DNA of 64,000 nucleotides from Rhodobacteraceae bacterium DSL-40 (GTDB lineage Bacteria > Pseudomonadota > Alphaproteobacteria > Rhodobacterales > Rhodobacteraceae): assembly GCA_003258405.1 (NCBI GenBank), contig QKPN01000001.1:558001-622000 (forward strand), read 5' to 3'. The notes below the pieces were generated by a model. That model had not been told where the DNA came from, ran no database searches, and saw only the letters and a list, made by a program, of their open reading frames with translations. The stretch's first letter is position 1, and each line of letters opens with the position of its first letter. This document shows positions 7,850 to 31,612 of the stretch, one piece after another. The translations under genes and the position numbers were made by a program.

Positions 7850-8935
7850 TTACTGACCGGTGCGGACCTGCGTCCAGAGCCGCGTGAAGTCACGCTCGGT
7901 GCGTGCGTCACGCATCGCGGACGGGAAGAGATTTGCTAGCACATCCGCGGGCGGATAGATTTCCGGATTATCCTTGATCTCGGGGCTCACGAACTCAAGC
8001 GAGTCAGGGACCGCGTTCGGATAGAACACGTAGTTGGTGATATCCGCCATGATTTCCGGCTGAAGGATGAAGTCGATGAACTTGTGAGCTGCATCCGGGT
8101 TCGGGGCATCCGCGGGGATTGCCATCATGTCGAACCACTGCAGGGTCCCTTCCTTCGGGATTGAATAGTTGACCGTGATCCCGCGCGCCGCCTCCTCCGC
8201 CCGGTCCGCCGCAATGAAGACGTCGCCCGAAAAACCGACGGAAACGCAGACTTCTCCGTTCGCAAGGTCCGAGATGTATTGCGAGGAATGGAAATACCGG
8301 ATGTAAGGGCGAATTGCCTCGATCAGGCCGGCAGCTTCGGCAATCTCGTCACGGTTGCTCGTTCCCGGATCGTAGCCGAGATAGTGGAGAAGCGGCGGAA
8401 AGACTTCGGTCGCGCTGTCGAGCACGGTAATACCGCAATCGGCAAGCTTTGCCGCGTTCTCTGGATTCAGGATCAAATCCCAACTGTCAACCGGTGCATC
8501 CTCGCCCAGGCGCTCGCGCACCATGTCCGGATTGTAGCCTATACCGTTGGTGCCCCACATGTAGATGATCGCATGATCATTGTTCGCATCGTAGGCTGCG
8601 GCACGCTTCATCTGCTCAGGATCGAGATTGTCAAGGTTGGGAATCTTGGACTTGTCCAGCGGCATGTAGATTCCGCCCGCGATCTGGCGGCGCAGGAAAT
8701 CAGAAGTCGGCACGACAAGATCATAGCCGGATGAGCCCGCGAGAAGCTTTGCCTCGAGTACCTCATTGGAGTCGTAGACGTCATAAATGACGTCAATCCC
8801 GGTCAACGTCTCGAACTTTGCGATGGTGTCTTCGGCAATGTAATCGGACCAGTTGTAGATATGCAGCTCTTCCGCGAACGCGGGAGCTCCGAATGCAAAT
8901 ACGGCTGCTAGGACGGGAGCTTGACGCAAATTCAT
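7850..8935 (-). CDS. potF: periplasmic putrescine/polyamine-binding protein
   Basis: A 361-residue secreted binding protein. It has a short signal peptide ending near APAFAEE, then ELHIYNWSDYIAEDTI, which is the characteristic opening of PotD/PotF mature proteins. GYDLVVPTSDFLRRQI and CGITVLDSATEVFPPLL are further family blocks. It should deliver putrescine-type substrates to PotABC. It is 65 bp upstream of potA. PotF and PotD differ in ligand pocket residues that I cannot assign reliably by eye, so putrescine versus spermidine remains open. Confidence 0.87.
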   Translation of the reverse strand: MNLRQAPVLAAVFAFGAPAFAEELHIYNWSDYIAEDTIAKFETLTGIDVIYDVYDSNEVLEAKLLAGSSGYDLVVPTSDFLRRQIAGGIYMPLDKSKIPNLDNLDPEQMKRAAAYDANNDHAIIYMWGTNGIGYNPDMVRERLGEDAPVDSWDLILNPENAAKLADCGITVLDSATEVFPPLLHYLGYDPGTSNRDEIAEAAGLIEAIRPYIRYFHSSQYISDLANGEVCVSVGFSGDVFIAADRAEEAARGITVNYSIPKEGTLQWFDMMAIPADAPNPDAAHKFIDFILQPEIMADITNYVFYPNAVPDSLEFVSPEIKDNPEIYPPADVLANLFPSAMRDARTERDFTRLWTQVRTGQ

Positions 8936-8960
8936 ATAAGCATCCTTCTACGATTCGGGA

Positions 8961-10271
8961 CTACATTCCCAGGCGATCCCTCAACGCATACCACCAAGAT
9001 CCCACGACGGAATAGGGCACGGCGAACCGGCGGCCACCGGGAAAGGGAATCCAGGGCACTTTCTGGAACACATCAAAGCTGCGGCGATCACCATCGACCG
9101 CCTTGCCCAGAATCTGCCCAAAAAGATGGCTGCCAACGACACCATGACCGCTGTAGCCTTGGGCAAAATAGGTCGCATTCCCAAGACGCCCCATCTGGGG
9201 CACCCGGCTGAAAGAGATTGCACAATTGCCGGACCAAGCGAAATCGACGCCCACCCCCTTCAGATCCGGGAAGACCTTTTCGAGACTGGGTAGCAGCTTT
9301 GCGCGGATATCGGCTGGATCGCTTCCACCGTAGACCGTTCCGCCACCAAAGAGCAGCCGCCCGTCCGCCGAAAGCCTGTAGTAGTCGAGTATGTAGCGCA
9401 CGTCCTCGACACACATGTCAGTGGGCAAAAGTGCCCTGCCACGTTCACCCAGCGGCTCGGTCGCGATGATCTGGGTAGAGAATGGCATGATCCGGTTCTC
9501 GAGCTCCGGCACAAGGTGACCTAGATAGGCATTTCCTGCCAAGATCAGTACTTCCGGCCGGATCGCCCCGGTCGCCGTCCGCACGACAGGCCTACCGGCA
9601 GGATTCTCGACAGAGATCACCCTGCTCAGTTCGTGGATGGTTCCGCCCAAGCTCTCAAACGCCGCAGCTTCGCCTAGGGCAAGATTGAGAGGGTGCATGT
9701 GACCGCCAGAATGATCGAGCATGCCGCCAAGATAGATATCTGACGCTATGTGCCTGCTCAACGCGGCCCTGTCGAGCATCTCGAAATTATCGTGACCGTG
9801 ACGCCGCCAGAGCGACTGCTTGGCTTCGAGCTCCTGCATCTGCTTCGCAGTGAAGGCGGTGAAGATGTTACCGTCCCTCAGATCGCATTCGATACCATAT
9901 CGTGCAACCCGATCCCGGATGATCTCGCCACCCGTTTGAACCACTGTCCCGACAAAATCGGCGGTATCTCGGCCGTAACGCGCCGTGATCGTCTCGAGAC
10001 TTGCGTTGAGGCCATTTACAATCTGCCCACCGTTGCGCCCAGATGCGCCCCATCCGATCCGAGCGCCTTCCAGCAGAACGACCTCATGCCCCCGCTCCGC
10101 GAGCTCAATCCCGGCTGAAAGGCCGGAGAATCCGCCGCCGACGATGCAGACCTCCACCTTCCGCTCGCCTTCGAGCGGCGGGCGCGCTGCTGCAGGATTG
10201 GCCGACGCCGCGTAATAGCTTTCGGGATAGGCGCCTCCGGCCGTGTAATCCTTCGCCGCGCGGGCCATCAC
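8961..10271 (-). CDS. puuB: gamma-glutamylputrescine oxidase-like flavoprotein, copy 2
   Basis: A 436-residue DAO-fold flavoprotein of the same family as the copy at 44-1354. Both share the CIVGGGFSGLSAGIELAE-type FAD motif, the GWGASGRNGGQI block and the C-terminal GYSGHGVVGSHLFG. They also share the AVDG/FDVFQKVPWIPFPGG-type tail. It sits directly after the glutamine-synthetase-like gene (overlap of a few bases) and before potF, the arrangement expected for a PuuA-PuuB pair. The two copies are clearly diverged, so this is an old duplication or separate acquisition rather than a recent one. Confidence 0.82.
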   Translation of the reverse strand: MMARAAKDYTAGGAYPESYYAASANPAAARPPLEGERKVEVCIVGGGFSGLSAGIELAERGHEVVLLEGARIGWGASGRNGGQIVNGLNASLETITARYGRDTADFVGTVVQTGGEIIRDRVARYGIECDLRDGNIFTAFTAKQMQELEAKQSLWRRHGHDNFEMLDRAALSRHIASDIYLGGMLDHSGGHMHPLNLALGEAAAFESLGGTIHELSRVISVENPAGRPVVRTATGAIRPEVLILAGNAYLGHLVPELENRIMPFSTQIIATEPLGERGRALLPTDMCVEDVRYILDYYRLSADGRLLFGGGTVYGGSDPADIRAKLLPSLEKVFPDLKGVGVDFAWSGNCAISFSRVPQMGRLGNATYFAQGYSGHGVVGSHLFGQILGKAVDGDRRSFDVFQKVPWIPFPGGRRFAVPYSVVGSWWYALRDRLGM

Positions 10272-14585: not shown

Positions 14586-16274
14586 TCAGACGAAGGCGAA
14601 ATCGTCTGAGCTCAGCGACCCGGAATAGTCTTCGAGCGTGATGCGGAGCATCGCGTAACCTGGGTCTTCTGCATAGTTGTTCGCCTCGATACCGGTATTG
14701 AAGAGCACCGTGGTGTTCGTCACGCCTGCGCTGTCCTCCTTGCGAACATAACTGAGCTCGAAGACGCCCGGCTCGTTGCTCTCGCCGATGAAGGTGGGTG
14801 TGAGCCCGTCAGGATTGTCTTCGATCTCGATACAGAACACATCCCCTTCTGCCGTGTCGAAATCACGGATCGACCCCCAATGACCGCGGACCTCCGACAA
14901 CCAATAACCAAAGTCTCGCGTCGCATTGCTGAAGCGGAACTGATCCGCGCCGGCCCCTCCCTCCATGTCCATGTAGCCAAACCCCGCAACAAGGGTATCG
15001 TTGCCCTTCCCGCCATGGAGTTCCTCGCCCGTCGGATCGTAGTAGCTGCGGAAGAAGCTGAACTCGTTGTAGAAGGCCCCGCCGCTGAGGATCAGGTCGT
15101 CGCCCGCGCCCCCCTTCAGGATCTCGATGTCCCCATCGGAATAGACTTCCGTTCCACCCTGGATGGTGTCGTTTCCCCCGCCACCGTCGACGACATTCGC
15201 CCCGTTCCCGGCCGCGATGAAATTGGCCTTCCCATCGCCGAACACCGTGTCGTCCGTATCTCCGAGCCGGAGGTTCTCGATCGAGACGAGCCGGTCGACC
15301 GGCCCGCCCCCATTGCTCCAGCGTGCCTCGCTGGCGACGAGGTCGATCGTCATGTCCTGGCCGTGCCCGATGCCGGAGCCAAAGTGGTACTCTGCATCGA
15401 CATAGACGGCGGTATCGCGGCCTTCTCCACCCTTCAGCAGGTCCGATCCGTCCTTGAGCGCTCCGGCAAAATCCGGTTCAGGATCGTCTTCCTCGTAACC
15501 GAGATCAATCTGCTCCGAGGCCCCGCCCGCAAGCGTATCGTCCCCCGCACCGCCTCGCAGCGTGTCATTGCCGACGCCGCCGACGAGGCTGTCATCGCCC
15601 GCGCCGCCGTCGAACCAGTTGGCAGCGTCGTTGCCGATGAGGATGTCGTCGCCCGAGCCCGTCCGCGCCTCCTCGATCGAGACGAGGGTCTCCGCTCCCC
15701 AGGGCGTGCCGGGAAAGCTCGCCTTGCCCAGGGCAAGGTCGATCTGCACCGGCCCGGTGTTTTCCGCATAGAGCACGCGGTCGCGCCCCGCCCCGCCGTC
15801 GAGGAAATCGTGCCAGCCGCCGCCGTCGAGCGTGTCGTGCCCCGCGCCGCCGAAGAGCCGGTCGTTGCCGTCGCCGCCCTGCAGCAGGTCGTTGCCCGGG
15901 CCGCCGCGCAAGTCGTTCTTCGCCGCGTTGCCGATCAGCGTGTCATTGCCCGCACCGGTCTCCACGTTCTCGATCGAGATGAGCGCCTCGTCCGCCCAGG
16001 ACTGGCCCGGAAAGCGCGCGAAGCCGCGCGAGAGATCGATGCGCACCGGCGTCTTGTTGAAATCGTAGAGCGCCCAGTCGCTCCCCGGCCCACCGTCGAG
16101 CAGGTCGTGCCAGCCGCCACCGTCAAGCACATCGTCGCCACCCCGGCCATGGAGCGCATCGTTGCCGTCGAGCCCCCGGATGAAGTCGTTGCCGCCCGTG
16201 CCATTCAGCACATCGTTGCCCGCGGTTCCGTCAATACGTGTGTAACCGCCTGCACGGCGCAATGATGAGGCCAT
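14586..16274 (-). CDS. RTX-type calcium-binding secreted protein (562 aa)
   Basis: Built from nonapeptide repeats of the GGxGxDxLx type, for example [36 protein letters not shown] and [19 protein letters not shown]. The repeats are concentrated in the N-terminal 250 residues. Interspersed blocks near [14 protein letters not shown] and [14 protein letters not shown] recur and look like a longer internal repeat unit. The C-terminus ends SSDDFAFV, the acidic-hydrophobic tail of type I secretion substrates, and there is no Sec signal. The repeats bind calcium outside the cell. No catalytic domain is recognisable, so the role (adhesin, surface layer or matrix protein) is unknown. Eight G residues lie just upstream of its start. 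Confidence 0.85.
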
Positions 16275-22975: not shown

Positions 22976-23409
22976 CAGAAAGATCCTGTCTGGTCCTTGA
23001 AAGGCCGCTCTGCACTCGCCCGCAACCCCGAGGATGCGACCGATGATAGCCCGGCGAGCTTGACCGGCGTGAAATCGGAGTGCGGCGCGGACATCTGCAA
23101 GCTTTCCAATTCCCGTATCTGCTGACGAAACTGGCACGCTCTTTTCGAACGTGAAAGTTCGCGGCCGGACTCCGCCTCGCAATGAAAGATCAGTTGCGGG
23201 ATTTCAGCGCCCGGATATTAGTTACCCCATGGCTCTCAGACAACGACTGTCTGGATGTGGCAGGGAGCGAGAACGATGCGCCGAACGACGTCACCTGAGC
23301 TGCAAGATCAGCCCGAGTGGCATATGGAAGGCGCACTTCTTTTCCGTCCCCCAGCCACTAGAGAATGGCCGTAACCAACCCGAATAGTGCCCGATGGAGA
23401 TTCTCTGAA
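22976..23409. other. gene-free leader region of the large RTX gene
   Basis: 434 bp without a believable coding frame. It should contain the promoter of the RTX gene at 23410. A ribosome-binding GGAG lies ten bases before that start. I saw no clear promoter boxes or repeats. Confidence 0.45.
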
Positions 23410-26400
23410 ATGGCTTTCTTGACAGGCGACGACTCCGCCGAAACCCTCAGAGGCGGTGACGAATTCGACTATATCTATGGCCGCGGTGGTGCCGACAGCA
23501 TTCTGGGCGGCTTCAACGGTGACTATCTCTATGGGGAAGATGGCGCTGATACCGTCGATGGCGGCTTCCAGAACGACATGGTATCAGGTGGCGTGGGAAA
23601 TGACCTTCTGAGAGGCGGGTCCGGCGACGACACTCTCTACGGCAACGCGCTCTACAGTTTTGAGACTGACGCAGGCACTGACACAGCCTATGGCGGACTT
23701 GGAGACGACCGGTTCGGAACCTACACGCCCGCTGATGTCCGTGCAGGCGGTGACCGGCTCTTCGGCGAAACCGGCTTCGATATCGTTGGCCTGGATTTCT
23801 CCGGACGTTCTGGCGCGGTCACATTCGCTACACCCGACAGCATAGCAACCACTACGATTCTCGGTGGCTTGCGTCTCCTCAGTGTCGAGCGTTTCGACAT
23901 CACGGGGACTACGGACGACGACAGACTTACCGGAAGCCTTTTCTCCGATACCCTCAACGGCGGTGACGGGAACGACACACTGCGCGGCGGCGGCGGCAAC
24001 GACTGGCTCAACGGCGGTGACGGCCGTGACAACATTATCGGCCAGGATGGCGCCGACCAAATGGAAGGCGGGGAAGGCGCAGATACGCTCGACGGCGGAA
24101 ATGGCGCCGACTACGCGTACGGCGGCGATGGCAATGACGTCATCTCGGGCGGCCGGGGCAACGACTATCTCTTAGGGGATCTCTATTACGGCGATGCCAC
24201 GGGAAATGATCGTATCAGCGGCGGGGACGGGAACGACTACATCTTCGGCAACACCGGAAACGACTCCCTCTCCGGCGACGATGGCGACGACAATCTCTCT
24301 GGCGGCAATGGCCTCGACACACTCTCCGGCGGGAATGGCGACGATACTCTGGATGGTGGCACCGGGCGCGACCGCCTGATCGCAGGAGCTGGCAACGACC
24401 GGATCGCACACGCCGTTGGAGAAGGCGCTGACGTGATGGATGGGGGTCGCGGCAACGACACCTTCGTGCTCACCGGTCTCTCCGGAACCTTTCGTGCGAC
24501 AGCTTCCGGCACGCAGAATACGCTCTCCGACGGCGCCAAGATCGTGAACATGGAGACCTATTCGATCAACGGTTTGAACAGCGCCGATCGCATCGTGACG
24601 CTCGGAGGCAATGACACGCTCTCTGGCGGCGGTGGCAAAGACACACTCTCGTCAGGTCAGGGCAATGACTTCGTTGCCGGCGGAGCGGGCAACGATTCCC
24701 TGATCGGTGGCGGAGGCAGTGACTACATCGATGCAGGTACTGGGCGCGACACCGTCTTGGGCGGAAGCGGTGCCGACAGGATTGATGTAGGCGCAGGCGG
24801 ACCTGATCGCGTCGAGGCCGGTAGTGGGATCGACTTTATCGAAATCGATCGCTCAAGCCAGAATCGCAACGATTTCGTATTCGACATATCCGGCCGCCGG
24901 GCGACACTGAATGACGGAACGGTCGTGCTGGATGGCGAGCAGTTTTCGGTCTCAACCGCAGGCGGAGACGATACCCTCAACGGCAACGGGGCGCTCTACG
25001 TCTACTTCGACAGTGGGGCCGGGAACGACCGTCTGACTGGCACATCGGGCACCGACTATCTCAACGCCGGCAGCGGCAACAATGTCGTCAACGGCGGAAA
25101 TGGTGATGATACGATCTACGCAGAGTTCGGCAACAACCGCATCAGCGCCGGGTCCGGCAACGACAACATCCGCATCAATACGCTGACGAATGCCAGCGAC
25201 TCCATCAAGGGCCGCTTTACCCTGGATGGTGGAGCTGGGACTGACGTCGCAACAATCAATCGTGAGGGTGCAACTGCAAACCTCACCTTCAAGCTTGCTG
25301 CCAGCGCAACGCTCGTCAATGGCGGTGTCACGCTCGAAAGCATCGAGCGAGTCTCCATCACGACGGGCAGCGGCCGCGACCGGCTGACGGGTGGAGCGCT
25401 CGCCGACAGCCTGAGCGGAGGCAGCGGAGCCGATACCCTGACGGGGCTAGGTGGCGATGACTGGATTTCAGGCGGAGACGGCAGCGACAAGCTAATCGCC
25501 GGCAGCGGCGATGACAGGATATACGGCGACAGCGGCAACGATACCCTTACGGCAGGCGCCGGCAGCGACGAACTCCAAGGCGGCGAAGGTCTGGACAATA
25601 TCGACGGAGGCGACGGCAACGACACCCTTGCCGGAAACAACTATTACGGCTTCTCCTACGGATCCTACGGCTTCAGCGCCGATGATGGCTCACGCGACGT
25701 GCTCACGGCAGGCGCAGGAAACGACGCGCTCTACATCAATCACCTGGATCGCGCCGTGGGCGGTGCCGGTATCGATTACATCTATGTTGATCTTTCAGAT
25801 ACGGCCAATGCGGCGAACTTCGTCTTCTCGAACGGAAATGTCGCGGTAAATGCCAGCACATCCTTCGCTCAGATGGAAGGGCTCGGCTTCAACGGAAGCA
25901 CACGCGGAGACAAGGTCACTGGCAGTGCGCGCGGCGATATCCTGCTCGGCAATGAGGGCAACGACACGCTGGTGGGCGGTCGGGGCGATGACCAGTTCAA
26001 TGACGGCGAAGGCAACGACCGGCTTCTTGGCGGCGGCGGCAACGACAACTTCGTACGTTCCGACGGCGACGGCACCGACCTCATGGACGGCGGTGATGGT
26101 TTCGATAGCCTGAGCTTCGATTTCTATTCGTCACTCTCTGCTGTCGTCGATCTGGCCAACGGCAACAGAAACGATGGTATCGCTCGAGGCTTGACCCTGA
26201 GGTCGATTGAAGCTGTGCACGGCAGCTCGCAGGACGATGATATCCGTGGCAGCGGACGTGCCGAGAGTCTTGCCGGGGGCGGCGCGGGCGACCTTCTGAA
26301 TGGGCGGGGCGGCAATGACACACTAGAAGGAGGAGCAGGTGCAGATTTGCTCACCGGGGGTTCTGGCGCGGATCATTTCGTATTCGGTTATGATGCGATC

Positions 26401-26673
26401 GGCTCTGGCGATGACATTACCGATTTCACCCGCGGGACAGACAAACTGGTGCTTGAAGGAGCCGACTTCGGCTTTGACAGTCGCGCCGATTTCAATCTGG
26501 TGACCGGCACGTCGCCCAGCGTGACCGGTGGCTTGCCTCAGTTCCTATTCGAAACAGATTCGAGCCGCCTGTGGTATGACGCGGATGGCTCGGGCGGTGA
26601 TTCTGAGGCCGTGCTCATGGCAACATTGAACGACGTTCACAACCTCACGAAGGCTGACTTCCTCATCACCTAG
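23410..26673 (+). CDS. large RTX-type calcium-binding secreted protein (1087 aa)
   Basis: Almost entirely RTX repeats from start to about residue 980, such as [40 protein letters not shown] and GGNGDDTLDGGTGRDRLIAG. They are broken by non-repeat blocks (RTSGAVTF-like, QNTLSDGAKIVNMETYSING, NFVFSNGNVAVNASTSF). The end is an M10/serralysin-type C-terminal module: GADHFVFGYDAIGSGDDITDF, then a tail finishing LTKADFLIT, the type I secretion signal. No catalytic domain is visible. The start at 23410 (MAFLTGDDSAETL) has GGAG upstream. No ABC exporter is nearby, so export must rely on genes elsewhere. Likely a calcium-dependent surface or matrix protein. Confidence 0.87.
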   Translation: MAFLTGDDSAETLRGGDEFDYIYGRGGADSILGGFNGDYLYGEDGADTVDGGFQNDMVSGGVGNDLLRGGSGDDTLYGNALYSFETDAGTDTAYGGLGDDRFGTYTPADVRAGGDRLFGETGFDIVGLDFSGRSGAVTFATPDSIATTTILGGLRLLSVERFDITGTTDDDRLTGSLFSDTLNGGDGNDTLRGGGGNDWLNGGDGRDNIIGQDGADQMEGGEGADTLDGGNGADYAYGGDGNDVISGGRGNDYLLGDLYYGDATGNDRISGGDGNDYIFGNTGNDSLSGDDGDDNLSGGNGLDTLSGGNGDDTLDGGTGRDRLIAGAGNDRIAHAVGEGADVMDGGRGNDTFVLTGLSGTFRATASGTQNTLSDGAKIVNMETYSINGLNSADRIVTLGGNDTLSGGGGKDTLSSGQGNDFVAGGAGNDSLIGGGGSDYIDAGTGRDTVLGGSGADRIDVGAGGPDRVEAGSGIDFIEIDRSSQNRNDFVFDISGRRATLNDGTVVLDGEQFSVSTAGGDDTLNGNGALYVYFDSGAGNDRLTGTSGTDYLNAGSGNNVVNGGNGDDTIYAEFGNNRISAGSGNDNIRINTLTNASDSIKGRFTLDGGAGTDVATINREGATANLTFKLAASATLVNGGVTLESIERVSITTGSGRDRLTGGALADSLSGGSGADTLTGLGGDDWISGGDGSDKLIAGSGDDRIYGDSGNDTLTAGAGSDELQGGEGLDNIDGGDGNDTLAGNNYYGFSYGSYGFSADDGSRDVLTAGAGNDALYINHLDRAVGGAGIDYIYVDLSDTANAANFVFSNGNVAVNASTSFAQMEGLGFNGSTRGDKVTGSARGDILLGNEGNDTLVGGRGDDQFNDGEGNDRLLGGGGNDNFVRSDGDGTDLMDGGDGFDSLSFDFYSSLSAVVDLANGNRNDGIARGLTLRSIEAVHGSSQDDDIRGSGRAESLAGGGAGDLLNGRGGNDTLEGGAGADLLTGGSGADHFVFGYDAIGSGDDITDFTRGTDKLVLEGADFGFDSRADFNLVTGTSPSVTGGLPQFLFETDSSRLWYDADGSGGDSEAVLMATLNDVHNLTKADFLIT

Positions 26674-27005
26674 CGTGCCCGAAGCTTTGCCTTCGGGTGC
26701 GCCCGCAGCCGAAGGCTTCAAGCATGAAAGACCAAGTCCCAGTCTGATCGCATGACGGGCCTTGGTACATCTGAATTTTATTTAAAGTTGATTTACATCT
26801 TCTCATTCTGAAAATATCCGAAAAATTTCGTCAGTTCATGACGCTATAAACAGATTATTCTTGATTTCATATTTGAGTCGGTCCGGACTACCTTCCGACT
26901 GCCAGCAAGTGCATCGGCCGGAGGGGCGACCGAGGCACATACCGGGTTAGGTAACTTGCGCTGGTCGTGAATTTATTGGTTCGAAGGCCTGGAAAGGTAC
27001 GATCA
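26674..27005. other. intergenic region with hairpin and AT-rich promoter zone
   Basis: 332 bp. The left part holds a terminator-like hairpin. The middle, about 26770-26880, is clearly more AT-rich than its surroundings and is the likely promoter of the Tat-peptide/GMC oxidoreductase pair. No operator repeat was recognised. Confidence 0.5.
26678..26697 (+). terminator. terminator-like hairpin after the large RTX gene
   Basis: CCCGAAG and CTTCGGG form a perfect 7-bp stem around the six-base loop CTTTGC, five bases after the RTX stop. There is no following T run, so termination strength is uncertain. Confidence 0.5.
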
Positions 27006-27176
27006 ATGAAGAGCCGCAGGAGCTTTCTCAAAGCATTTCTGACACTTGTCGCAACGCCTGCAACACTTGCGCTTGGCCGCATCATGCCAGCGCACGCTGC
27101 AACACAGGAATTTCATGTCGTCAACGGCTGGATCGTCACCGACCACGATCTCGAGGTGTTGAAGAGACATGCTTAG
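27006..27176 (+). CDS. 56-aa Tat-signal peptide, putative export subunit for the GMC oxidoreductase
   Basis: Starts MKSRRSFLKAF, an exact twin-arginine SRRxFLK motif. A hydrophobic stretch and the cleavage site PAHAATQ follow. The mature part would be only about 24 residues and contains FHVVNGWIVTDHDLEVL. The stop overlaps the start of the GMC oxidoreductase by 8 bp. That enzyme has no signal of its own. In known FAD dehydrogenase complexes a small Tat-bearing subunit carries the flavoprotein across the membrane; this looks like a minimal version. Function is inferred from signal and overlap. Confidence 0.75.
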   Translation: MKSRRSFLKAFLTLVATPATLALGRIMPAHAATQEFHVVNGWIVTDHDLEVLKRHA

Positions 27177-28698
27177 TGACACGCGTAGTGCCGACCGGAG
27201 CCTGTTTTCGCAGACCTTCGACATTTGCATCATCGGCGCGGGACCGGCCGGCATCACCCTCGCCCGCCGCCTCGCCAGGAGCGGATGGAACGTTGCCCTC
27301 ATGGAAGGCGGCGACGTCGATTTCACCGATGAAAGTCAGGATCTCTACATCGGAGAAATCACCGGCATACCCTACACCGATTTGGATGCGGCGCGCCTGC
27401 GCTATCTCGGCGGCACCTCCAACCATTGGGGCGGGGCCTGCAGGGAGCTCGACGCCTACGATTTCACGCCCTGGCCCCATATCGCATTGAGTGGCTGGCC
27501 GATCTCCAAAAGTGATCTCGATCCTTACCAGCCAGAGGTCAACGACATCCTCGACCTCAAGCCGCCGGCCGGCTTCCCCGATCATCCAATCGATCATGAC
27601 GAGCACCTCTTCCGCAAGATCGACTACCGGCAATCCGGCCCGACCCGCTTTGGTCCGAAATACAAGGACGAGCTTGTGGCGTCGGACAAGATCCAGCTCG
27701 TGCTCAATGCCAATCTCGTCGATCTCCGGCTCGATTCTGAACTCCAGACCGTAACCGAGGCTGTCTTTCGCGGTTATGGTACTGACGATCCAGGCTTTAC
27801 GGTTCAGGCACGCATCTACTGCCTCTGCTGTGGAGGCATGGAGAATCCACGCATTCTCCTAAATGCCCGGAGTCAGGCCCTGAAAGGCATCGGCAACAAC
27901 TACGATCTTGTCGGGCGCTACTTCTGCGAGCACCCATTCATCACTGCAGGGGAGATCCTCTTCGAGGAGCCATTTTACGTGCGTGAGGAGTTCGCCCCGA
28001 CTCCCGCGGTGATCGGCGAGACCCGGATCCTCAACTACAACATGCATGTGGCACCCTGGAGCTACGGCAGCCCCCTATCCCTGCCCAAGGAAGTCGCGCG
28101 ATCGGCAGCCTGCGCCACCCCGTTTCTCGACCGCCTCGTGACGGAAGTGCTCGGAAAGTCGCTCAAATGCGACAATGATGCTTACGGCATAACCGGCTAC
28201 CGGGCTAAGCGCGAGGAAGCGTTTCACGGCCGCCTTGACCTCCAGATGGAACAGAGCCTCCTGCCAGGCAACCGCATCATGCTGATCGAGGATACCGATC
28301 GTTTCGGCCTCAACAAGATCGCTATGGACTGGAATCTCGGGGCGCTTGATCACCGCACGATACGGGCCGCTGTGATGGGCATCGGCACCCACCTTGCCGC
28401 CCACGGCATAGGCCGGGTCAAGGTGCCCGACTGGCTGCTTGACGATGACTGGGACGCTATGGTCAGCTCCGGCTCCATCCGGGGAAGCATGCATCACATG
28501 TGCACGACCCGCATGTCGGACAACGCGCGCGAAGGTGTCGTCGATGCGGACTGTCGCATTCACGGCATGACCAATCTCTACGTCGGAGGATCAAGTGTCT
28601 TTGCCACGGCCGGGCATGCAACGCCGACCTATACGATCTGCCAGCTCGCGCTCCGACTTGGAGACCATCTGACCCAGGAAGCGGCAAACCCGGCCTGA
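27169..28698 (+). CDS. GMC-family FAD oxidoreductase
   Basis: A 509-residue flavoprotein. The FAD motif is FDICIIGAGPAGITLARRLA (residues about 17-36), followed by the GMC signature LRYLGGTSNHWGGACREL. The C-terminal domain holds GSMHHMCTTRMSDNAREG and GGSSVFATAGHATPTYT, giving the expected active-site His. It belongs to the sugar/alcohol dehydrogenase branch that includes gluconate, sorbitol and glucose dehydrogenases. It has no signal peptide. The preceding overlapping Tat peptide suggests a periplasmic location after co-export. No cytochrome c electron-acceptor subunit is adjacent. The substrate is unknown. Confidence 0.85.
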   Translation: MLSDTRSADRSLFSQTFDICIIGAGPAGITLARRLARSGWNVALMEGGDVDFTDESQDLYIGEITGIPYTDLDAARLRYLGGTSNHWGGACRELDAYDFTPWPHIALSGWPISKSDLDPYQPEVNDILDLKPPAGFPDHPIDHDEHLFRKIDYRQSGPTRFGPKYKDELVASDKIQLVLNANLVDLRLDSELQTVTEAVFRGYGTDDPGFTVQARIYCLCCGGMENPRILLNARSQALKGIGNNYDLVGRYFCEHPFITAGEILFEEPFYVREEFAPTPAVIGETRILNYNMHVAPWSYGSPLSLPKEVARSAACATPFLDRLVTEVLGKSLKCDNDAYGITGYRAKREEAFHGRLDLQMEQSLLPGNRIMLIEDTDRFGLNKIAMDWNLGALDHRTIRAAVMGIGTHLAAHGIGRVKVPDWLLDDDWDAMVSSGSIRGSMHHMCTTRMSDNAREGVVDADCRIHGMTNLYVGGSSVFATAGHATPTYTICQLALRLGDHLTQEAANPA

Positions 28699-28828: not shown

Positions 28829-29446
28829 ATGTTCACCGGGATCATTACCGACATCGGCCGGATCGAGAGCCTCGAAGATCGGGGCGATCTGCGCGCGCGC
28901 ATCGTTTGCCATTATCAGCCCGAGTCGATCGCGCTCGGCGCTTCAATCGCCTGCGATGGCATTTGCCTCACCGTGGTTGATCTGGGCCCCTATGGCGACG
29001 GCGCATGGTTCGACGTCGATATCTCCGCGGAGACCCTGTCGAAGACAAACGTGCGCCATGGCCGCACGGCTTGGGCACCGGGCATCGGCATCAACCTCGA
29101 GCGCGCGCTCCGGCTTGGCGACGAGCTCGGCGGACACGTGGTATCGGGGCATGTCGATGGGGTGGCAGAGATCGTCTCGGTCAAGCCGGAGGGTGACAGC
29201 ACACGCGTGACCTTCCGCGCCCCCGATGAACTGGCTCGCTTTATTGCGCCGAAGGGCTCCGTTGCACTCAACGGAACATCGCTCACGGTGAACGAGGTTG
29301 ATGGCGCCGAATTCGGGGTGAACTTCATCCCCCACACCAAGACAGAGACGACTTGGGGCGACATAGCCCCAGGCGATCTTGTCAATCTCGAGATCGACAC
29401 GCTGGCCCGCTATGTCGCGCGGCTTGCAGAATACAACGCGGCCTGA
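28829..29446 (+). CDS. ribE: riboflavin synthase, alpha subunit
   Basis: A 205-residue enzyme made of two lumazine-binding repeats. The first opens [16 protein letters not shown] with the catalytic N-terminal MFTGI. The second begins near [14 protein letters not shown], and each repeat has a SLTV/CLTV block ([21 protein letters not shown]). It dismutates two 6,7-dimethyl-8-ribityllumazine molecules to riboflavin. The open frame extends 30 codons upstream without family likeness. It heads the rib-nusB cluster. The leader shows no FMN riboswitch that I can recognise. Confidence 0.93.
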
Positions 29447-29462
29447 GGGAGGAGCGACAGGG

Positions 29463-30587
29463 ATGGAAGATGGTCTCAAGTCGCAGAGCGACGACAGCTT
29501 TACCGACGCGATTTCCTCCATCGAGGAGATCATCGACGACGCCCGCAACGGTCGGATGTTCATCCTCGTCGACCATGAGGACCGCGAGAACGAAGGCGAT
29601 CTGGTGATTCCCGCCCAGATGTGCACGCCCGACGCCGTCAACTTCATGGCGACCCACGGCCGCGGCCTCATCTGCCTCACGCTTCAGGGCGAGCGGCTCG
29701 ACTCCCTCGGCCTGCCCATGATGGCTCAGGCCAACTCCTCCCGGCATGAAACGGCCTTCACGGTCTCCATCGAAGCCCGCGAAGGCGTAACGACAGGCAT
29801 CTCGGCGCACGACCGCGCCCGCACTGTCGCAGTGGCGATCGATCCCCGCTCGGGACCGCAGGACATTGCAACCCCGGGGCATGTCTTCCCGCTCCGCGCC
29901 CGCGAGGGCGGCGTTCTGGTACGCGCCGGTCATACGGAAGCTGCGGTCGATATCTCCCGGCTCGCCGGACTGAATCCCTCGGGTGTGATCTGCGAGATCA
30001 TGAACGAGGACGGCACAATGGCGCGACTGCCCGATCTCGTGGCCTTCGCACAGCGCCATGGTCTAAAGATCGGCACGATTTCCGATCTCATTGCCTACCG
30101 GCGCCGACACGACAATCTCGTGCGCCGCACGCGAAGCGAAACTGTGACCTCCGAGTTCGGCGGTCAGTGGCATTTGCATGTGTTTTCCGACGTCACCGGC
30201 GGCGCCGAGCATATCGTCCTCACCAAGGGCGATCTCACCACGTCAGAGCCTGTCCTCTGTCGCATGCACGCCATCAATCCTATGGAAGACCTGCTCGCCC
30301 TTCATCCTGGCCGCTCGCACCAGCTCCGCGATGCAATGCGCACCATCGCAGAGGAAGGACGCGGTGTCGTCGTCCTGCTGCGCGACATGTCGACGAAGCT
30401 CGAGATCGGCGATCACGTCAGCCCGCACAAGCTTCGCCAGTACGGTCTCGGCGCTCAGATCCTGAGCTCGCTGGGCCTTACCGAAATTGTGCTGCTCAGC
30501 AATTCCCCCAGCCCCAAGGTCGTCGGTCTTGACGGCTATGGCCTCAAGATCATCGGCACCCGGCCGATTCCGACGACGGAGACCTGA
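29463..30587 (+). CDS. ribB: RibBA: 3,4-dihydroxy-2-butanone-4-phosphate synthase with degenerate GTP cyclohydrolase II domain
   Basis: A 374-residue two-domain protein. Residues 1 to about 210 are an intact RibB domain: [36 protein letters not shown] and [12 protein letters not shown]. The C-terminal domain follows the RibA fold ([35 protein letters not shown]). The stretch that should carry the zinc cysteines GDxxxSxRCDCG instead reads [18 protein letters not shown], with no cysteines. The protein should make dihydroxybutanone phosphate but not act as a GTP cyclohydrolase. GGAGG precedes the start, 16 bp after ribE. Confidence 0.9.
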
Positions 30588-30588
30588 A

Positions 30589-31125
30589 ATGGCCAGCCAT
30601 GAGCAAAAAGATGCCCTGCCGCTTCCAACCTTTGAGCGTCCGACGCGGGTCGCGCTGATCGTCGCGCCGTTTTACCGAGATATCGCCGACAATCTGATCG
30701 CCGGTGCGTGCAAGGTACTCGACACGGCAAATGTCGCGCACGAGACCATCGAGGTACCCGGCGCGCTCGAGATCCCGACCACCGTGGCGCTTGCTGCCCG
30801 CAGCGGTGAATTCGACGGGTTCGTAGCACTCGGCTGTGTTATCCGCGGCGAGACGACCCACTACGATACCGTCTGCAACGACAGCTCTCGTGGCCTCACG
30901 CTGCTCGGGCTCAAGGGGGTTTGCATCGGCAACGGAATTCTTACCGTCGAAAACACCGCGCAGGCGATGGCCCGTGCGCGGCCTTCGGAAATGAACAAGG
31001 GCGGCGGTGCAGCGGAGGCCTGTCTTCATCTCATCACGCTTGCCCGCCGTTTTGCGCCCAGCACAACCCCGCTCCCCGAGGGAAGCTTCCGCCTTGCGGG
31101 TGAGGTAGATGGAGAATTTGCCTGA
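30589..31125 (+). CDS. ribH: 6,7-dimethyl-8-ribityllumazine synthase
   Basis: A 178-residue enzyme that condenses dihydroxybutanone phosphate with the pyrimidine intermediate. Key blocks are VALIVAPFYRDIADNL, EVPGALEIPTTVALA, and GCVIRGETTHYDTVCN, which has the catalytic His. The C-terminal LHLITLARRF is typical. The start at 30589 lies one base after the ribBA stop, so translation is coupled. The upstream open frame is a shadow of ribBA. The product feeds RibE. Confidence 0.93.
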   Translation: MASHEQKDALPLPTFERPTRVALIVAPFYRDIADNLIAGACKVLDTANVAHETIEVPGALEIPTTVALAARSGEFDGFVALGCVIRGETTHYDTVCNDSSRGLTLLGLKGVCIGNGILTVENTAQAMARARPSEMNKGGGAAEACLHLITLARRFAPSTTPLPEGSFRLAGEVDGEFA

Positions 31126-31126
31126 G

Positions 31127-31612
31127 ATGAGCGAAACCGTCCGCATCTCGGCTGCGGAGGCCCGGCGCCGACGCTCGGCCGCGCGGTTCTATGCCGTGCA
31201 GGCCCTCTTCCAGATGGAAGCAGCCGGCGCCGCTCTCGACGACATCGAGGCCGAGTTCGAGGTTCACCGCATCGGCACCGAAATCGATGGCGTGCCCTAT
31301 CAGCCCGCCGACCTCGAGCATTTCCGCAATCTTCTGCGCGCGAGTGTGAAGCACCAGGCGCGCATTGACCAGATGACGAACCGGGCGCTTGTCGCGCGTT
31401 GGCCGATCGAGCGGATTGACCCGACGGTGCGCGCCGTCTTCCGCGCGGCGGGCGCCGAACTCGTGGCCTGCGACACTCCGCCCAAGGTGACGATCACCGA
31501 GTTTGTCGATGTGGCAAAGGCCTTCTTTCCGGACGGCAAGGAAACCAAGTTCGTAAACGCGGTTCTCGATCACATGGCACGCGAGGCGAGACCGAGCGCG
31601 TTCGCCTCGTGA
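31127..31612 (+). CDS. nusB: transcription antitermination factor NusB
   Basis: About 161 residues, all helical. The RNA-binding N-terminus is ARRRRSAARFYAVQALFQME and the NusE-contact region lies near ITEFVDVAKAFFPDGKETKFVNAV. NusB joins NusA, NusE and NusG to suppress termination in rRNA operons. The start is uncertain: ATG 31127 follows the ribH stop by one base, while an in-frame ATG at 31109 would overlap ribH. The linkage ribH-nusB is common across bacteria. Confidence 0.9.
   Translation: MSETVRISAAEARRRRSAARFYAVQALFQMEAAGAALDDIEAEFEVHRIGTEIDGVPYQPADLEHFRNLLRASVKHQARIDQMTNRALVARWPIERIDPTVRAVFRAAGAELVACDTPPKVTITEFVDVAKAFFPDGKETKFVNAVLDHMAREARPSAFAS

Follow-up and report, generated by a model that had tools for sequence, protein, structure and literature searches.

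The window, the whole 64,000-nucleotide stretch of Rhodobacteraceae bacterium DSL-40 DNA that was analysed, carries on its plus strand a small ORF (27006..27176, stop included; ATG at 27006, TAG at 27174-27176) directly 5′ of a gene for a GMC-family flavoprotein. From the ORF itself, a profile match and its conservation, we propose that it encodes a minimal carrier subunit. A Shine-Dalgarno-like GGAAAGG lies 8 nt 5′ of its ATG (26991..26997, +), and the 56-aa product, MKSRRSFLKAFLTLVATPATLALGRIMPAHAATQEFHVVNGWIVTDHDLEVLKRHA, begins with a Tat signal peptide of 31 residues (27006..27098, +) in which an exact twin-arginine motif, SRRSFLK, is followed by a hydrophobic stretch and by a cleavage site, predicted by eye, after AHA (PAHA/A). 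Cleavage there would leave a mature peptide of about 25 residues (27099..27173, +) containing a conserved segment, VVNGWIVTDHDL (27117..27152, +), which the models of relatives predict to be a beta-hairpin around NGW followed by a short helix, and which is our candidate docking site. A Pfam scan of the peptide returned only a weak TAT_signal match, under the cut-off. The stop of the peptide gene overlaps the start of the GMC gene by 8 bp (27169..27176, +); the relatives often show overlaps of a few bp as well, and this arrangement makes translational coupling of the two genes likely.

The GMC gene (27169..28698, +) encodes 509 aa without a signal peptide: its N-terminus, MLSDTRSADRSLFSQTFDICIIGAGPAG, offers 17 residues before the FAD-binding strand, which leaves no room for a signal, and the same is true of its relatives. 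In these respects the locus is as an earlier note on this DNA had described it, with the exact SRRSFLK motif, the cleavage site and the short mature part borne out by the ORF and its translation, the 8-bp overlap by the position of the GMC ATG (27169), and the missing signal by the short N-terminus. On the 5′ side the pair is bordered by a gene for a 1102-aa RTX calcium-binding repeat protein (23365-26673); farther upstream, the minus strand encodes another RTX-like repeat protein (562 aa; 14586-16274), whose name comes from its translation. About 130 bp 3′ of the pair begin homologues of the riboflavin synthesis genes ribE, ribBA and ribH, followed by nusB (28829-31612; all four names read off translations), so that in the window a flavoenzyme gene adjoins flavin pathway genes. 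TatC is present in the genome.

Membership of the window protein in the GMC superfamily is indicated by a GMC_oxred_C match of 70.3 bits (Pfam cut-off 24.6), a GxGxxG FAD motif and the active-site His. This catalytic residue, His442, is conserved in 47 of 47 aligned proteins, and His86 corresponds to the covalent-FAD-type His of the glucose and fructose dehydrogenase and oxidase families. The catalytic Asn, present in 39 of the 47 relatives, is replaced in the window protein by Thr485 (codon 28621-28623); Thr also occupies this position in two other aligned sequences, the closest relative among them, and as a one-residue change within the GMC family it is no ground for excluding the protein from that family. 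By both sequence and fold, the closest solved chains are the catalytic subunits of the FAD glucose dehydrogenase of B. cepacia (BcGDH) and of Gluconobacter fructose dehydrogenase, the large subunit of the latter being the best fold match, and C-glycoside oxidases and pyranose oxidases come next. The score against the pyranose oxidase model (TIGR02462, pyranose_ox), 59.4 bits, is far below its cut-off of 544.9. The large subunit of BcGDH has a 3Fe-4S cluster on Cys212, Cys218 and Cys222 and is accompanied by a tri-haem subunit, both of which are absent here: the corresponding part of the window protein (residues about 129-181) is much shorter and has no Cys, and no multi-haem cytochrome c subunit is encoded among the window neighbours (the RTX protein and the rib genes). 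The lack of an adjacent cytochrome, which the earlier note had pointed out, extends beyond the window, since among 49 loci with the peptide just one contains, within 2 kb, a CxxCH ORF in the same direction.

The carrier interpretation had been made to depend on the peptide being kept beside GMC genes elsewhere, and it is. We examined 106 GMC relatives, obtained from genome searches and from a collection scan in which the single window protein retrieved no relatives and an alignment query retrieved 80 loci. Rows with the peptide alone, which misaligned to the enzyme, were left out. A strict pattern was applied: a small ORF ending directly at the GMC start had to encode both twin arginines and, C-terminally, [N/D/K/R/S/G/E]GW[V/I/L]. 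This pattern was found immediately upstream of 65 of the 106 genes, compared with none in the downstream control and none in the reverse-complement control, which argues that the adjacency of peptide and enzyme is not due to chance; because many of the relatives are kindred Mesorhizobium loci, the 65 are a count of loci and not of independent events. Further cases fall outside the strict pattern (SRW in L069 and L128, GWE in L070). The pair occurs in many Alphaproteobacteria and in some Beta- and Gammaproteobacteria.

Two parts of the peptide are conserved, the twin-arginine motif and the segment that had been picked out beforehand as the docking site. Twin arginines before a hydrophobic stretch were present in all 71 unique upstream peptides (63 assigned by script classes and 8 by reading). 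Across 21 aligned short peptides, no variation is seen at the second Arg or, within the GW segment, at the Trp and the Asp; the first Arg and the Gly of that segment are retained in at least 90%. The ratio pN/pS over the conserved parts of 18 Mesorhizobium peptides was ∼0.20, from which we conclude that the ORF is translated and that selection acts on it. A profile built from the 21 sequences matched the window peptide with E=5.9e-18, the window peptide being itself one of the 21. Across 16 genomes, the near-full-length matches to this profile adjoin a GMC gene with one exception (in G004), and the remaining matches are partial and mostly fall in the Tat-signal part of longer ORFs. The short peptide, apart from its sub-threshold Tat signal, is covered by no family in Pfam or NCBIfam scans, nor is the longer protein described below; the homologue in Azospirillum thermophilum is annotated as a ‘hypothetical protein’ whose start is apparently missing.

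Peptides of the window type, which consist of a Tat signal and the GW segment, are about 38-70 aa long, the smallest having 38-41 residues in total (L097, L082, L017). In Bacteroidota, Gemmatimonadota and some Proteobacteria, the same position 5′ of the GMC gene is taken by a longer protein of about 109-137 aa that combines the same twin-arginine signal and GW segment with a helical domain, the GW segment being followed by a TEARxCAL helix. In the long form the twin arginines and the GW segment are 83-115 residues apart, against a median distance of 35 in short forms, and a comparison of the two profiles aligned exactly the GW segment (probability 81%, E 1.3e-5). Judged by their sequences, the short peptide is related to the long helical small subunit through the common signal and GW hairpin. 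In a tree of 93 GMC proteins, a branch with 99% support divides all 36 short cases from all 17 long cases. Since a longer protein with the same signal and hairpin is encoded in the same place, the short peptide resembles a genuine subunit in shortened form; reduction from long to short is the more natural reading of an unrooted tree by which the direction is not proven.

Structural models of two natural pairs related to the window pair, in which peptide and enzyme share a frame, point to where the two proteins might touch. One pair has a short peptide (L060, from a Mesorhizobium-like MAG, with an enzyme about 48% identical to the window GMC) and the other a long one (L116, from Bacteroidota), and each was given to AlphaFold2 as one joined chain with the stop read as Gly. 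In the L060 model, the signal (residues 1-47) had pLDDT <50, the block 51-60 (ELVMRDGWVL) had a mean pLDDT of 85 and formed two strands around DG, the linker block fell to 68, and most of the enzyme exceeded 90. For L116, the signal (1-27) again fell below 50, and the mature small subunit (30-125) was predicted in blocks at pLDDT 84-98, with strands at 103-106 and 109-112 around KG followed by a helix, which is the same hairpin as in L060. A ten-residue hairpin that is ordered between poorly ordered stretches would be unlikely unless it packed on the enzyme. We infer such packing from the confidence values of joined chains, in which the covalent joining itself favours contact.

Tat hitchhiker export, in which a signal-bearing protein takes a folded partner with it, is an established principle. 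We know of no carrier peptide for pyranose 2-oxidases or C-glycoside 3-oxidases, which resemble the GMC half of the pair in fold and in having His residues of the same type. For GMC enzymes, the carriers on record are complete subunits some 170-180 residues long, and one of them also binds beside a metal cluster. The small subunit of BcGDH, described as a Tat hitchhiker required for both folding and secretion (PMC6719666), is, like the window peptide, a small Tat protein encoded with a signal-less GMC enzyme; however, this member of the FAD-SLDH family (Pfam PF12318) has about 168 aa with helices. Gluconobacter fructose dehydrogenase (PDB 7W2J, 8JEJ) likewise pairs a Tat small subunit with a GMC large subunit, but its small subunit is of the PF12318 type, with 183 aa, and its partner is a membrane cytochrome c. 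The similar layout led us to suspect that the long form might be a PF12318 homologue, which profile comparison did not support: hhalign against a PF12318-type small subunit gave a probability of 4% for the long form and 9% for the peptide, that is, no detectable similarity, the PF12318 model matched neither of them, and a profile search of the PDB with the long form yielded chance matches only. Gluconate 2-dehydrogenase subunit 3 (Gluconate_2-dh3, PF13618) is also a Tat-signal small subunit that serves GMC dehydrogenases, yet its Pfam model matches neither the peptide nor the long form. A search of the genome for a PF12318 or a PF13618 small subunit found neither, so that neither type is available there to carry the GMC protein instead. 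In E. coli PaoABC, hydrogenase and formate dehydrogenase, according to two papers (PMC4273604, PMC10924467), a signal-bearing partner carries signal-less ones through Tat; unlike the window peptide with its 25 mature residues, that partner is a large cofactor protein. Searches of full texts, with most subscription journals outside their scope, turned up the hitchhiker principle and no description of this pair. The mechanism is known, and what is new is a carrier in such a reduced form.

The window pair has the attributes of a hitchhiker system, with a twin-arginine signal on the small partner, an enzyme that lacks one, and conservation of the partner with the enzyme. We favour, with a probability of roughly 80%, the explanation that the two genes form an export unit in which the peptide is a near-minimal Tat hitchhiker carrier that docks through its hairpin. 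The GMC protein, having no signal of its own, would fold in the cytoplasm and take up FAD there, probably covalently via His86, and insertion of FAD in the cytoplasm would be a reason for using Tat instead of Sec. The peptide would bind the enzyme in the cytoplasm by the small beta-hairpin of its conserved segment, its free N-terminal twin-arginine signal would take the complex through the Tat pore, and after passage the signal would be cleaved, with about 25 residues remaining on the enzyme as a tiny subunit. Binding, co-export, a periplasmic location and action on a sugar or glycan are inferred; the closest solved relatives of the enzyme are exported by hitchhiker small subunits. The proposal of a near-minimal carrier, already made in the earlier note, thus gains support from the recurrence of the pair, from the hairpin predicted in two unlike natural pairs and from the existence of a longer counterpart.

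The peptide is not always found beside a GMC gene. Of the 49 GMC genes in the short clade, 12 lack an adjoining peptide, so either the peptide acts in trans or these enzymes stay inside the cell; some of the peptide-less genes are paralogues, which indicates that the peptide is not obligatory in cis. Each of the orphan-GMC genomes checked (G004-G007, G009, G155 and G191, from Amaricoccus and other Rhodobacterales) has a peptide copy elsewhere, which might allow a single peptide to act for several enzymes; alternatively, the orphans may be cytoplasmic. We considered that every orphan might have an unseen peptide of its own and rejected this, the profile having found one copy per genome, two in G009, plus a stand-alone copy in G004. 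A broader scheme, in which a Tat signal on a separate gene with one docking hairpin has been reduced from a helical subunit and a single peptide serves several paralogues in trans, is one that we offer only tentatively. Neighbouring pairs of GMC paralogues with a peptide beside only one of them were observed at L057 (L010 and L023), in G191:C1 and in G155:C3. The stand-alone peptide (L151; G004:C14:596-751, minus strand, an Amaricoccus MAG) is followed by a sulfotransferase-like gene and not by a GMC gene, and its genome also has GMC genes without a peptide. In the same genome, the peptide gene 5′ of the GMC gene at L012 (G004:C31, about 1350-1510) appears to be frameshifted, with the twin-arginine signal and a degenerate hairpin segment in different frames.

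A different explanation for the conserved pairing is that the peptide serves chiefly as a subunit for structure or maturation, needed for the enzyme to fold, remain stable or load FAD, or else as a membrane tether, and that export is only one consequence of binding. Most of the long form is predicted to fold as a helical subunit, the small subunit of BcGDH is described as needed for folding besides secretion (PMC6719666), and several peptides (for example, those of Mesorhizobium and L017) have no AxA cleavage site; the lack of a clear site in many relatives would leave a membrane anchor, and some peptides may indeed stay as such. In the short form, however, only the twin-arginine signal and the hairpin are conserved, which leaves little for the peptide to do beyond carrying. 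We regard this explanation as unlikely, although a structural role is compatible with export and the two may coexist.

It is less probable still that the enzyme is cytoplasmic and that the peptide is exported alone, or is a substrate of the enzyme or a regulatory leader, with adjacency reflecting co-regulation. Although GMC paralogues without a signal or a nearby peptide and the copy in G004:C14 without a GMC gene directly downstream would fit such an arrangement, the hairpin is predicted to be ordered in both the short and long forms, a long folded version occupies the same place, the nearest solved relatives of the enzyme are exported via a small subunit, and an invariant Tat motif would be superfluous in a leader. 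Roles as a leader or substrate peptide were set aside. The existence of long forms, the Thr in place of the catalytic Asn in the window GMC and the apparent frameshift at L012 might suggest that the short ORF is what decay has left of a larger small subunit and has lost its function in this genome, but this is very improbable given the coding constraint on the Mesorhizobium peptides, the retention of the twin arginines and GW across short forms, and an intact window ORF with a ribosome-binding site.

If the window peptide is a hitchhiker carrier, it has apparently been pared to a signal and a hairpin, and the least that a folded enzyme requires for passage through Tat becomes testable; in laboratory strains, the hairpin could also be put to use as a small clip-on tag for export. 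Because such small ORFs can be missed or mis-started by gene callers, a group of enzymes that at present carry no label beyond ‘GMC family oxidoreductase’ may be located in the periplasm, where they would probably act on glycans or glycosides. For enzymes of the window type, a glycan or glycoside is weakly suggested as substrate by polysaccharide-related neighbours scattered among the relatives, several of whose names were read off translations. These include a CpsD-like kinase and sulfotransferases at L057, MBOAT-like genes at L012 and L026, and UbiA and PMT at L110. A further hint to the substrate comes from L065 (Hoeflea olei), where a gene for MdoG-type periplasmic glucan synthesis (8715-10271) lies near the peptide-GMC pair.
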